Under the pieces are notes generated by a model, which was not told the DNA's origin, did no database searches, and saw only the letters and a list, made by a program, of their open reading frames with translations. Shown one piece after another: positions 6,763 through 29,830 of a stretch of DNA of 64,000 bases; positions within the stretch are counted from its first letter, which is position 1; every line of letters starts with the position of its first letter. The stretch covers positions 1,240,001 through 1,304,000 of the forward strand of contig NZ_CP027942.1 of the NCBI RefSeq assembly GCF_005484985.1, read 5' to 3'. A program made the position numbers and the translations under genes. The stretch is from Agrococcus sp. SGAir0287 (GTDB lineage Bacteria; Actinomycetota; Actinomycetes; Actinomycetales; Microbacteriaceae).

Positions 6763-7302
6763 CTAGCCGTCGCCCCCGCGGGGCTGGTCGTCGCGCATGC
6801 GGAAGCGCGTGCAGTCGGTGGGGAAGTCGAACCACGCGAGGGCGCGGTGCGGTCGCAGCACCCGCAGGCCGCCGCCGTCCTCGTCAGCCCAGGCGTCGGC
6901 CGCGGGTGCGTAGCCGTCGTCGTGGTACTTCGCGAACGCGGCCGCGAGGCGTGCGCCGAGCCCGTCGGCGTCCGCCCGCGTCGCGGTCGACCGGCCCTCG
7001 ACGATGACGACCTCGGTGCCCGACTCCAGCGTGAGCGTCACCGCCGGGTTCGCCTCGGCGTTGCGCGCATGGCGCGTCGTGGCCGCGCCGTCGTACCAGA
7101 ACGCGCCGTCGACCCACACGCCCCAGCGAGGCACGACGTGCGGCGTGCCGTCCGGCCGCACGCTCGCGAGCCAGTAGTGGCGCGCCACCACGAGCCGCCG
7201 CTCGACGACCTGCCACGGCAGCACGCCATCGGTCGTCTCCGGCAGGCCGTAGCCCTCGGGCATCGTCGGGCGGTCGACGGTCGGTCCTGGTGCGCTGCGC
7301 AT
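6763..7302 (-). CDS. pyridoxamine 5'-phosphate oxidase-fold (PPOX) protein
   Basis: A 179-residue split-barrel protein of the PPOX superfamily, which in actinobacteria includes F420- or FMN-dependent oxidoreductases and haem-binding proteins. Supporting segments are HYWLASVRPDGTPHVVPRWG near the N-terminus, HARNAEANPAVTLTLESG and VIVEGRSTATRADADG. The LASVRPDGTPHVVP strand-turn is typical of this fold. The cofactor cannot be told. ATG 7302 is used; ATG 7263 (MPEGYG) is an alternative. It lies ten bases from orn and directly downstream of the tRNA-Arg fragment repeats. Confidence 0.75.
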   Translation of the reverse strand: MRSAPGPTVDRPTMPEGYGLPETTDGVLPWQVVERRLVVARHYWLASVRPDGTPHVVPRWGVWVDGAFWYDGAATTRHARNAEANPAVTLTLESGTEVVIVEGRSTATRADADGLGARLAAAFAKYHDDGYAPAADAWADEDGGGLRVLRPHRALAWFDFPTDCTRFRMRDDQPRGGDG

Positions 7303-7353
7303 CCTCGCATCGTGGTCGTGACCACCGACACGGGTCTGCAGGCGCAGCAGCAT

Positions 7354-7657
7354 CTCCGTGGCGCCCCCGGCGCGACTCGAACGCGCAACCGTCGGATGAG
7401 AAGGCCGATGCTCGGCGACGTGCGTGCTTCTCCGTGGCGCCCCCGGCGCGACTCGAACGCGCAACCGTCGGATGAGAAGGCCGATGCTCGGCGACGTGCG
7501 TGCTTCTCCGTGGCGCCCCCGGCGCGACTCGAACGCGCAACCATCGGATGAGAAGGCCGATGCTCGGCGACGTGCGTGCTTCTCCGTGGCGCCCCCGGCG
7601 CGACTCGAACGCGCAACCGTCGGATGAGAAGGCCGATGCTCGGCGACGTGCGTGCTT
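7354..7657 (-). repeat. four tandem 76-bp repeats of a truncated tRNA-Arg
   Basis: Units begin at 7354, 7430, 7506 and 7582 and the series runs into the intact tRNA-Arg, whose 3' end forms the start of a fifth unit at 7658. On the minus strand each unit holds the tRNA-Arg sequence from the end of the D-arm to the 3' end including encoded CCA, followed by 23 bases replacing the acceptor 5' strand and D-arm. All four have C instead of A at position 37, next to the TCT anticodon, so they share an ancestor different from the intact gene. They are otherwise identical apart from one G-to-A change near 7543. They cannot form a full cloverleaf. Confidence 0.92.
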
Positions 7658-7662
7658 CTCCG

Positions 7663-7738
7663 TGGCGCCCCCGGCGCGACTCGAACGCGCAACCGTCGGA
7701 TTAGAAGGCCGATGCTCTATCCATTGAGCTACGGGGGC
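7663..7738 (-). tRNA. tRNA-Arg (TCT)
   Basis: Full cloverleaf on the minus strand: acceptor GCCCCCG/CGGGGGC with G73 and encoded CCA (7663-7665), D-arm GCTC...GAGC, anticodon loop CTTCTAA with anticodon TCT, and T-arm GCGCG-TTCGAGT-CGCGC. The anticodon stem TCGGC/TCCGA has a C-T mismatch next to the loop. It is the intact member upstream of four truncated tandem copies. Confidence 0.95.
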
Positions 7739-7803
7739 AGTGCCTCGATCCTACGAGCGCCGCGCATCCCGCCGGCCCCTCGGTCGACCACAGGCCGGTC
7801 GCC

Positions 7804-7809
7804 TAGGGT
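7804..7809 (+). promoter_or_regulatory. -10 box TAGGGT, probable leaderless start
   Basis: TAGGGT ends six bases before the GTG of the DedA gene at 7816, with no Shine-Dalgarno sequence between. Confidence 0.55.
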
Positions 7810-7815
7810 GAGGCG

Positions 7816-8511
7816 GTGCACATCACGACGCTCGCCGCCGCCGCCTCGACCTCGTCCGACGAGCTGACCGGCGTCGCCGCCTGGGCCGTCGGCCTCATGG
7901 AGACCATCGGCGCGCCAGGGGCCGCGGTCGCGATCGCCGCGGAGAACCTGTTCCCGCCCATCCCGAGCGAGGTCATCCTGCCGCTCGCGGGCTTCACGGC
8001 GGCGCAGGGCGGGTTCACGCTCGCGGAGGCGCTCATCTGGACGACGGTCGGGTCGGTCGTCGGGGCGCTCGCCCTCTACCTCGTCGGGCGGCTGCTCGGC
8101 CACGACCGCGTGGTGTGGATCGCCGAGCGCATGCCCCTCGTGCGCGCCGACGACGTGCACAAGACCACCGCGTGGTTCCGCAGGCACGGCGGCAAGGCGG
8201 TGCTCCTCGGTCGCGTGCTGCCGATCTTCCGCAGCCTCATCTCGATCCCCGCCGGCATCGAGCGCATGCCGATCTGGAAGTTCCTCGCGCTCACCACCAT
8301 CGGGTCCGGGGTCTGGAACACCATCTTCGTCATGGCTGGCTTCGTGCTCGGGCGCAACTGGCACGCGGTCGAGCCGTATGCCGACGTGCTGCAGTGGGTC
8401 GTCGTCGCGGCTGTCGTGGTCGTGCTCGTGGTCTGGGTCGTCCGCAGGATCGCCGACGACCGCCGACGCCGCCTCGCGGGTCTCGATCCCGAGAGCGGCG
8501 AGCCGGTCTGA
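7816..8511 (+). CDS. DedA family membrane protein
   Basis: A 231-residue integral membrane protein of the DedA/VTT family, thought to be lipid flippases or proton-linked transporters that keep membrane homeostasis. Family features are the NLFPPIPSEVILPLAG motif (re-entrant helix) near the N-terminus, the VGSVVGALALYLVGRLLG helix, and the basic motif FRRHGGKAVLLGRVLPIFRS with IPAGIERMP following. A last hydrophobic helix precedes an Arg-rich cytoplasmic tail. It starts with GTG and appears leaderless. The substrate is unknown. Confidence 0.9.
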   Translation: MHITTLAAAASTSSDELTGVAAWAVGLMETIGAPGAAVAIAAENLFPPIPSEVILPLAGFTAAQGGFTLAEALIWTTVGSVVGALALYLVGRLLGHDRVVWIAERMPLVRADDVHKTTAWFRRHGGKAVLLGRVLPIFRSLISIPAGIERMPIWKFLALTTIGSGVWNTIFVMAGFVLGRNWHAVEPYADVLQWVVVAAVVVVLVVWVVRRIADDRRRRLAGLDPESGEPV

Positions 8512-28243: not shown

Positions 28244-29830
28244 ATGATGGCACGGCACGACAGCAGGCGCGGCGGACGGCGGTTCCTGCTCTGGGGCGCG
28301 CTCTCGGGCATCGCGAGCGGGCTCGTGTTCCTCGGCGTCGCCGAGGCCGTCGCGTTCTTCGTCTCGCCGACCGCGAGCCCGATCCTCGCGGTCGGCTCCT
28401 TCGTCATCGACGTCGTGCCGCAGCCGATCAAGGAGCTCGCGATCTCGACGTTCGGCGACGCCGACAAGGTCGCGCTGCTCGCCGGCCTCGGCCTCGCCGT
28501 GGCCATCGCGTCCGCGCTCGGCGGCGTCCTGCAGCTCGTCCGGCCGCCGCTCGGCGTCGCCGTCGTGCTGCTCGCGGGCGCCCTCGCGACCGCAGCCGCC
28601 GTGACGCGCACCGGCGGCGCTGCGCTCGCGTTCCTGCCGACGGTCCTCGGCGCCCTGGCCGGCGCCGCGCTGCTCCTGGTGCTCGGGCGACGGCTGCGCG
28701 GCTGGCGCGACGGCGCACGCACGGGCGCCGGCGCCGAGCGCGCGTCGCGCACCGCTGCGGTCGATCGCCGGCAGTTCCTCGTCATCACGGCCGTCTCGAG
28801 CGTCGTCGCGGTCGCCGCCGGCGTCGGCGCACGCCTCGCCTCGGCCGCCACCTCCTCGATCGAGGCCATCCGCGACGCGCTGCGACTGCCGACCCCCGGC
28901 TCGACGGTCACGATCCCGGACGGCGCCGAGCTCGACATCCCGGGGCTCTCGCCGCTGTTCACGCCGAACGCCGACTTCTACCGCGTCGACACCGCGCTCA
29001 CGGTGCCCGCGGTGGATCCCTCCTCCTGGCGGCTCGTCATCGACGGCATGGTCGACCAGCGCGTCGAGCTCTCCTTCCAGGACCTCGTCGACATGGGGGT
29101 CGACGAGTACGTCATCACCCTCACGTGCGTCTCGAACCAGGTCGGCGGCGGGCTCGTCGGCAATGCGACGTGGCTCGGCGTGCCCATCCGCGACGTCCTC
29201 GCGATGGCGGGCGTGCAGAGCGGGGCGGACATGGTCCTGTCCGAGAGCGTCGACGGCTACACCGCGAGCACGCCGCTCGCATCGCTCACGGACGACTCGC
29301 TCGACGCCATCCTCGCGATCGGCATGAACGGCGAGCCGCTGCCGCTCGAGCACGGCTTCCCCGTGCGCATGGTCGTGCCGGGCCTGTACGGCTACGTCTC
29401 GGCGACGAAGTGGGTCACGCGGCTCAAGGTGACGACCTTCGCGCAGGACGAGGCCTACTGGACGCCGCGCGGCTACAGCGCCCAGGCGCCCATCAAGCTC
29501 TCCTCCCGCGTCGACACGCCGCGCTCGGACACCCCGATCGACGCCGGCACCGTCGCCATCGCGGGCATGGCGTGGGCGCAGACGGTCGGCATCGAGAAGG
29601 TCGAGGTGCAGATCGACAACGGCGACTGGCAGCAGGCGACCCTCTCGACGGCCGTGAACGACGACACATGGGTGCAGTGGTACCTCGAGTGGGACGCGAC
29701 GCCGGGCACCCACTACATCGCCGTGCGCGCCACGGACAAGGCGGGGATGCTGCAGGTCGAGGAGCGCGCCCCGATCGCGCCGGACGGCTCGACCGGCTGG
29801 CAGCGGCCGCTCGTCACCGTGCGGGGCTGA
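28244..29830 (+). CDS. membrane-anchored molybdopterin-dependent oxidoreductase (sulfite oxidase type)
   Basis: A 528-residue protein. The N-terminal third has about four membrane helices; a linker then leads to a sulfite-oxidase-type molybdopterin domain with the Mo-ligating Cys295 in ITLTCVSNQVGG and segments VPAVDPSSWRLVIDG, HGFPVRMVVPGLYGYVSATK and KWVTRLKV. A C-terminal dimerisation domain (GIEKVEVQIDNGDW) follows. The catalytic part should face outward, reached through the membrane anchor. GGAGGGCGGGCG precedes ATG 28244. It stands next to cofactor synthesis genes. The substrate is not known; many bacterial members reduce methionine sulfoxide or other S/N-oxides. Confidence 0.9.
   Translation: MMARHDSRRGGRRFLLWGALSGIASGLVFLGVAEAVAFFVSPTASPILAVGSFVIDVVPQPIKELAISTFGDADKVALLAGLGLAVAIASALGGVLQLVRPPLGVAVVLLAGALATAAAVTRTGGAALAFLPTVLGALAGAALLLVLGRRLRGWRDGARTGAGAERASRTAAVDRRQFLVITAVSSVVAVAAGVGARLASAATSSIEAIRDALRLPTPGSTVTIPDGAELDIPGLSPLFTPNADFYRVDTALTVPAVDPSSWRLVIDGMVDQRVELSFQDLVDMGVDEYVITLTCVSNQVGGGLVGNATWLGVPIRDVLAMAGVQSGADMVLSESVDGYTASTPLASLTDDSLDAILAIGMNGEPLPLEHGFPVRMVVPGLYGYVSATKWVTRLKVTTFAQDEAYWTPRGYSAQAPIKLSSRVDTPRSDTPIDAGTVAIAGMAWAQTVGIEKVEVQIDNGDWQQATLSTAVNDDTWVQWYLEWDATPGTHYIAVRATDKAGMLQVEERAPIAPDGSTGWQRPLVTVRG

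Follow-up and report, generated by a model that had tools for sequence, protein, structure and literature searches.

Tandem copies of a tRNA-Arg(TCT) 3′ part with an altered base 37 in Agrococcus and related Actinobacteria: candidate attachment-site cores with a disabled crossover region

Four 76-bp units lie directly behind the gene for tRNA-Arg(TCT) in Agrococcus sp. SGAir0287 (G000), on the minus strand and running to lower coordinates, within the stretch of 64,000 nucleotides analysed here (the window). With moderate confidence, we read this array as amplified attB cores whose crossover region is disabled and which are kept in step with the tRNA. The units would be tandem copies of the attB core from the 3′ part of tRNA-Arg(TCT), in which the core would have been changed from TAATC to TCATC (position 37), so that tyrosine integrases acting at the anticodon loop would no longer use them. 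The copies would be kept identical to the 3′ half of the resident tRNA, presumably by recombination with it, and C37 would be retained, since any A37 copy would serve as a live attB and expose the locus to insertion and to site-specific rearrangement beside an essential tRNA. Copy number would shift by ordinary unequal exchange, and the array would act, if at all, as DNA. We infer that base 37 matters through the integrase and that selection keeps C37.

The array and its surroundings

The features of the locus are as follows, unit borders being counted from the end of the preceding CCA.

7663..7738, minus strand: intact tRNA-Arg(TCT), presumed live attB, a role deduced from relatives
7707-7701, minus strand: anticodon loop CTTCTAA of the intact tRNA-Arg(TCT), base 37 being A at 7702
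7698..7703, minus strand: TAATCC, tRNA positions 36-41, the crossover core position according to the junctions of the G312 and G849 prophages (TAATCT there)
7587..7662, minus strand: unit 1, with a 21-nt spacer (7642-7662) and 55 nt of tRNA 3′ part; C37 at 7626
7511..7586, minus strand: unit 2, with one extra substitution; C37 at 7550
7435..7510, minus strand: unit 3; C37 at 7474
7359..7434, minus strand: unit 4; C37 at 7398
7353..7358, minus strand: spacer start CGGAGA, repeated behind unit 4; the native flank begins here

Each unit consists of the 21-nt spacer followed by 55 nt that match the tRNA from about position 22 to CCA, save for the change of A37 to C (four of four). Units 1, 3 and 4 are identical, and unit 2 has one additional change. 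Tandem Repeats Finder (TRF) gives a repeat at 7353-7717 with a period of 76 and a score of 716. Partial spacers like the one that ends the array also close the arrays of some relatives. The sequence and TRF thus confirm the four tandem 76-bp tRNA-Arg 3′ fragments behind an intact tRNA-Arg described in the original prediction, whose unit starts (7354, 7430, 7506 and 7582) denote the same four units in another register, and the A37-to-C change is indeed common to all four and absent from the intact gene. The array had also been placed on the tRNA strand, before PPOX and orn genes; it is followed by a PNPOx-like ORF (PF01243) and then by an RNase_T exonuclease (PF00929, orn-like), both on the minus strand. 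We think that the period equals the length of a tRNA by coincidence, as other Arg arrays have 49-94 bp from the tRNA to the first unit.

A divergent gene with a VTT domain lies on the side of tRNA-Arg opposite to the array. This DedA-like gene is divergent and upstream of tRNA-Arg in the window (7738-7816) and in L002, L003 and L010, and it is downstream of and co-directional with tRNA-Arg in L009, L020 and L021. Additionally, no stop codon interrupts the array in any minus-strand frame (window 6763-7692), so that automatic ORF calls fuse it with the PNPOx-like gene into 309 aa.

Distribution, base 37 and agreement with the resident tRNA

Arrays were searched for with a pattern of three T-loops spaced 47-76 bp, blind to base 37, which matched 4 of 24 genomes at genus level, 32 of 398 at family level and 19 of 396 at order level. 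After filtering, arrays were retained at tRNA-Arg(TCT) in 12 genomes, at Lys(TTT) in 3 and at Thr(TGT) in 1, and further arrays at tRNA-Ser(GGA) in 6, tRNA-Val(GAC) in 3 and tRNA-His in 1. From the family matches, 11 of the 32 genomes were dropped (ordinary tRNA clusters, protein genes and the repeats of G315, for which no tRNA was found), and the remainder comprises 10 Arg, 1 Lys, 6 Ser, 3 Val and 1 His. The matched string alone served to judge two genomes, G197, which was dropped, and G196, which was kept as Val. The genus search added G018 (Arg), G008 (Arg and Lys) and G021 (Lys), which completes the 12 Arg and 3 Lys genomes, while the 19 order matches comprise four known array genomes, a new one (G436, Thr) and 14 that were left uncounted, 11 of them judged by matched strings alone. 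Arrays are mostly found in Microbacteriaceae, the family searched most, and the Thr(TGT) array is the sole one outside it in the T-loop pattern searches. When named genomes were scanned with C37 as a fixed letter, 46 stretches matched. The ones located directly behind tRNA-Arg come, among others, from Frigoribacterium, Microcella, Microterricola, Plantibacter, Leifsonia and Mycetocola and, outside Microbacteriaceae, from Aeromicrobium and one Nocardioidaceae MAG.

Arrays of the same design with other spacers occur in other genomes, but their distribution is patchy. G022 and G009, of the same genus, have an identical tRNA-Arg and the best other matches to the locus, and both are devoid of units. 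In 15 genomes of the genus of G261 (Frigoribacterium), between 0 and 3 units were counted, one case being masked and one interrupted. G261 has the same array sequence as Frigoribacterium sp. ACAM 257, and G272 the same as Microterricola pindariensis. Spacers differ between lineages and are identical within most of the arrays read. We infer that Arg arrays were born independently at least in G000, in G018/G008, in the TCTCTTGG clade, in two Aeromicrobium, in one Nocardioidaceae and in one further lineage, the Aeromicrobium and Nocardioidaceae births resting on the search with C37 fixed; to these may be added two or three births for Lys and one for Thr.

Some arrays at other tRNAs have features of their own. 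In the tRNA-Ser(GGA) arrays (L047, L051, L052, L053, L059 and L075), the T-arm and acceptor are kept and the variable arm has been turned into a similar GTG-n-CACA form in several genera. The units of the tRNA-Val(GAC) arrays (L049, L066 and G196) hold an inverted copy of the T-stem, with a strong hairpin in L066 (by eye).

The intact tRNAs at the Arg, Lys and Thr array loci read TAATC at positions 36-40 (the tRNA of G187 is masked), and the units read of all 16 array cases at these tRNAs (12 Arg, 3 Lys and 1 Thr, not selected on base 37) have C37. By script, 55 of 55 units had C37 in 15 cases, with 5 of about 10 units read in the Arg array of G008; the units of G181, the sixteenth case, gave no script reading and have C37 by eye. 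The units read TCATC or, in 3 of the 7 Lys units of G021, GCATC, T36 being lost as well. Lys and Thr units carry further loop changes, C37-A38 being common to all units read. When C, G or T was allowed at position 37 (A excluded and neighbouring letters fixed), 59 matches to tRNA-Arg 3′ halves were obtained in 29 of the 398 family genomes, 59 with C and none with G or T, genomes within one clade not being independent. Arrays of A37 units at Arg, Lys or Thr tRNAs were absent from the genus, family and order T-loop searches; two A37 copies are seen in 8 genomes of the order sample, and these could be att sites or second tRNA genes alike. The Ser, Val and His arrays do not clearly follow the C37 rule, as C37 was seen by eye in two of the six Ser arrays and is lacking from the Val and His units. 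Any mismatch in the core should disable the site, yet the arrays show only C, which counts against the preferred reading; our guess is that C would give the least tolerated heteroduplex.

Outside base 37, the copies follow the resident tRNA, as indicated by 30 distinct pairs of an Arg tRNA and its first unit, many of them from the TCTCTTGG clade. At the free positions 44, 48, 51, 52, 59 and 62-73, agreement was found in 30 of 30 pairs, and it holds where the tRNAs differ between species. Agreement was 26, 29 and 29 of 30 at positions 41-43 and ranged from 2 to 28 of 30 at positions 22-31 (numbered on from base 32), tRNA identity starting at the anticodon loop in most Arg units. Because A37 was required of the tRNA and TTCTCATC of the unit, the comparison carries no evidence on base 37. 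The distance from the tRNA to the first unit was 49-94 bp in the Arg pairs (150 bp screened), and the only larger distances in the loci compared were 127 bp (with a missed variant unit in between), 699 bp and 965 bp.

Integrases and prophages at the array loci

tRNA genes are among the main docking sites of prophages. For actinophage tyrosine integrases, the common cores listed in Table 2 of PMC10865867 measure 33-52 bp and correspond to the 3′ half of the tRNA gene when the tRNA is rebuilt. They are shortened to about 8-17 bp when it is not rebuilt and a phage tRNA replaces it (PMC10865867); the insertion then breaks an essential tRNA, which is known as tRNA-dependent lysogeny (PMC10865867). 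The core of phage Fionnbharth has CTT as its conserved left end, and Lys-TTT is a listed integration target (PMC10865867), Arg(TCT) being absent from Table 2 of that paper. The units described here span the anticodon loop to the tRNA 3′ end and coincide with this published core block. Their core is not identical to the attB of the tRNA, as base 37 differs in all four units here and in the 55 units of the 15 cases.

Two prophages indicate how such loci are used. In G312, of the same genus as G272, tRNA-Arg(TCT) is split at TAATCTCTTGGTCGC, and attR is directly followed by two C37 units. In Microcella alkaliphila G849, the split is at TAATCT, and one C37 unit directly follows attR. Each prophage carries a tyrosine integrase (PF00589) and its own tRNA-Arg(TCT). 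The left arms of attR in both are unlike the units and do not account for the first copy, which may have begun as an att scar or as a duplication. Additionally, the C37 form of tRNA-Lys was found in three stretches of IMG/VR, each at an attR-like junction in which the phage end CTCGACGCA is followed by CTTTTAATCC, a spacer and 1, 1 and 2 C37 units, respectively, with a PF00589 gene ending 74-75 bp away; these three junctions are those examined among 96 stretches matching the Lys A37 pattern, and they present the attR-like side only, attL not being seen.

All five prophages at C37 array loci therefore lie in the A37 tRNA copy and none of the five in the neighbouring C37 unit. The chance of this outcome under equal choice is 1/72, for a sample of five prophages found through C37 patterns. 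That the units are inert towards phages is supported by these five natural events; the arrays did not stop the five prophages. Among the three roles suggested in the original prediction, attachment sites in series comes closest to the data: the copied block is the core region of tyrosine integrases, but the copies do not seem to behave as live sites.

The integrase of the G849 prophage has relatives in other phages, among them Microbacterium phage Min1 (52%) and Arthrobacter phage Elesar (41%). In the latter, a tRNA-Arg gene adjoins the related tyrosine integrase (28252-29248, L369), which suggests that Elesar may share the life style of the G312 and G849 prophages. In these two prophages (L343/L344 and L345/L346, respectively), the split in the anticodon loop and the tRNA-Arg(TCT) beside the integrase correspond to tRNA-dependent lysogeny.

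Several known systems resemble these arrays in part. The attB/attP cores of actinophage tyrosine integrases (PMC10865867) cover the same part of the tRNA, which runs from the anticodon loop to the 3′ end; unlike the cores described there, the copies found here stand in tandem beside the tRNA, are mismatched at base 37 where the array is of the Arg, Lys or Thr type, and were left unused by five prophages. The G312 and G849 prophages break tRNA-Arg(TCT) and bring their own tRNA, as in tRNA-dependent lysogeny (Guerrero-Bustamante and Hatfull, mBio 2024), but the latter concerns the phage side, whereas the array belongs to the chromosome and adjoins the target, and no description of it was found in that paper. 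Remnants of attR and tandem accretion also line up displaced tRNA 3′ halves along a single strand; the arrays differ in that they lack an integrase and have C37, mostly identical spacers and short units (49-94 bp from the tRNA to the first unit for Arg). The rtT repeats of the E. coli tyrT operon are likewise tandem repeats behind a tRNA gene that contain a tRNA 3′ end, but their units are longer and include only about 19 bp of tRNA. To our knowledge, they have no anticodon part and no invariant core change. In the literature searched, no description of such arrays beside tRNA genes was found.

If selected, a recurrent array of docking-site copies that share one mismatch would suggest that hosts respond by altering or multiplying their attachment sites. 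Should they be passive, the arrays still provide naturally occurring mismatch variants of integrase cores and point to tRNA genes on which integrases exert pressure.

Alternative explanations

A tentative possibility, which we regard as unlikely, is that the array is a fossil, that is, the tRNA 3′ half of an attR left by a decayed element, which then grew as a neutral minisatellite and took C37 from the att arm of the element. Tandem elements at tRNA-Arg and tRNA-Lys genes have been published (PMC3218068), and the start of tRNA identity at the anticodon loop in most Arg units is as expected from such an origin. Moreover, C37 and A37 copies occur on one contig, with PF00589 genes 0.2-4 kb away, in Nocardiopsis (G656 and G662) and Actinomadura (G651), and C37 sites can therefore be element borders. 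However, the matches in 40 Nocardiopsis genomes are mostly A37 (63 of 73, intact genes included, with 9 C37 and 1 G37), and tRNA sequence runs on to the left of C37 in G000 and G018, so that C37 is not at the junction. The short distances from the tRNA to the first unit also argue against this origin, as does the scarcity of integrases, since G000 has only two Phage_integrase (PF00589) genes, about 53 kb and about 680 kb from the array. No tyrosine integrase was found within about 53 kb of the array, nor was an integrase or other element found between the copies, whose spacers are 21 nt long (tyrosine integrases searched).

The screen of viral contigs, which covers viral elements, points the same way. 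None of them has an Arg 3′ half in which position 37 is C, G or T, against at least 120 halves with A. A looser C37 pattern gave seven further viral matches, with no A37 copy within 400 bases, which look like other tRNAs or fragments, and the G37 version of this pattern matched 28 viral stretches. When the locus was compared with phages and plasmids by BLAST, no record covered 80% of it, and the matches listed were single and tRNA-sized. Two further candidates were discarded: that C37 is the usual letter of Arg attP (no viral contig), and that a resident tyrosine integrase maintains the array, each of G000 and G181 having just two PF00589 genes.

Up to eight tRNA-Arg 3′-half matches per genome occur in Nocardiopsis (including G656, G662, G663 and G881), several in series with integrases, and this series is an accretion of elements at tRNA-Arg(TCT). 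In Frigoribacterium G643 (L293), a two-gene cargo joins an array unit that is cut just behind the core, behind tRNA-Arg; it consists of a ParA-like ATPase and a below-cut-off HEPN (RiboL-PSP) match, with no integrase or second junction found within 20 kb. This joint, like the C37 copies near PF00589 genes in Nocardiopsis and Actinomadura, speaks against the preferred reading.

Within the preferred reading, the units may serve as integrase decoys, binding the integrase or attP without completing recombination, or may persist simply because they are inert. The stronger proposal, that the arrays are an anti-integration device of Actinobacteria, in which tandem decoy att sites maintained by conversion and carrying a fixed C37 mismatch would let the integrase start and then stall, is doubtful in our opinion. 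If true, it would lower prophage insertion into an essential tRNA.

We also consider it unlikely that ordinary tandem duplication, unrelated to phages, gave rise to the units and that C37 is a chance founder change spread by unequal exchange. The near-identity of the units within G000, the range of 0 to 3 units across the 15 Frigoribacterium-genus genomes and the lineage-specific spacers would all be expected from such a process, and the reading of the array as a harmless expansion may hold. Nevertheless, different lineages show the same A-to-C change at one and the same position, whether the array is of the Arg, Lys or Thr type, and C was seen 59 times at base 37 against no G and no T. In addition, the copies track the resident tRNA at variable positions, yet no A37 array was found at the three tRNAs. 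Amplification from a mutant truncated copy, as originally predicted, fits G000 taken by itself, but A37C also recurs beside Lys and Thr tRNAs and in further lineages, and a founder accident alone does not explain this. Our preferred reading remains that of amplified attB cores whose crossover region is disabled.

An RNA device is improbable. It would require that read-through from tRNA-Arg yields 3′ halves that decoy processing, modification or anticodon nucleases, with C37 preventing N6-modification of A37. The array does lie on the tRNA strand directly behind the tRNA, tRNA-Arg(TCT), Lys(TTT) and Thr(TGT) are all expected to carry t6A37, and 22 of 30 units could still form three of the five anticodon-stem pairs and 5 of 30 could form four, as intact tRNAs do. 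By contrast, the RNA of one unit folds worse than its shuffles (z +1.7), whereas the intact tRNA folds better (z -2.1), and a tRNA-processing decoy, as had been suggested, is therefore unsupported. In most units, the 5′ strand of the anticodon stem is unlike that of the tRNA, the T-loop of some Frigoribacterium units has been rewritten, and no promoter- or terminator-like match was found in the array region. The intact tRNA is the sole match at the locus above the Rfam gathering score.

An assembly or annotation artefact is hardly credible: some arrays do run into contig ends (e.g., L197/L219), but G000 is a single contig of 3,084,767 bases, and the same design recurs in many genomes with differing spacers and unit counts.

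Four narrower ideas on the origin of the units or of C37 were rejected. Reverse transcription of a mature tRNA with a modified A37 does not fit units that end in genome-encoded flanks (CACC, CACT and GCGC) and not always in CCA. An origin of C37 in the trailer, at the junction of a duplication, does not hold for G000 and G018, whose units extend the tRNA sequence to the left of C37. Removal of a TAA stop is contradicted by the TGA carried by several spacers, and CRISPR-like spacer capture by the identity of spacers within most arrays read.

A further variation was observed in the Frigoribacterium genus, where about 20 nt replace the T-loop in the units of L272, L275, L276, L279 and L281, both sides being still tRNA-like. 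Four of these five replacements contain TGATGA.
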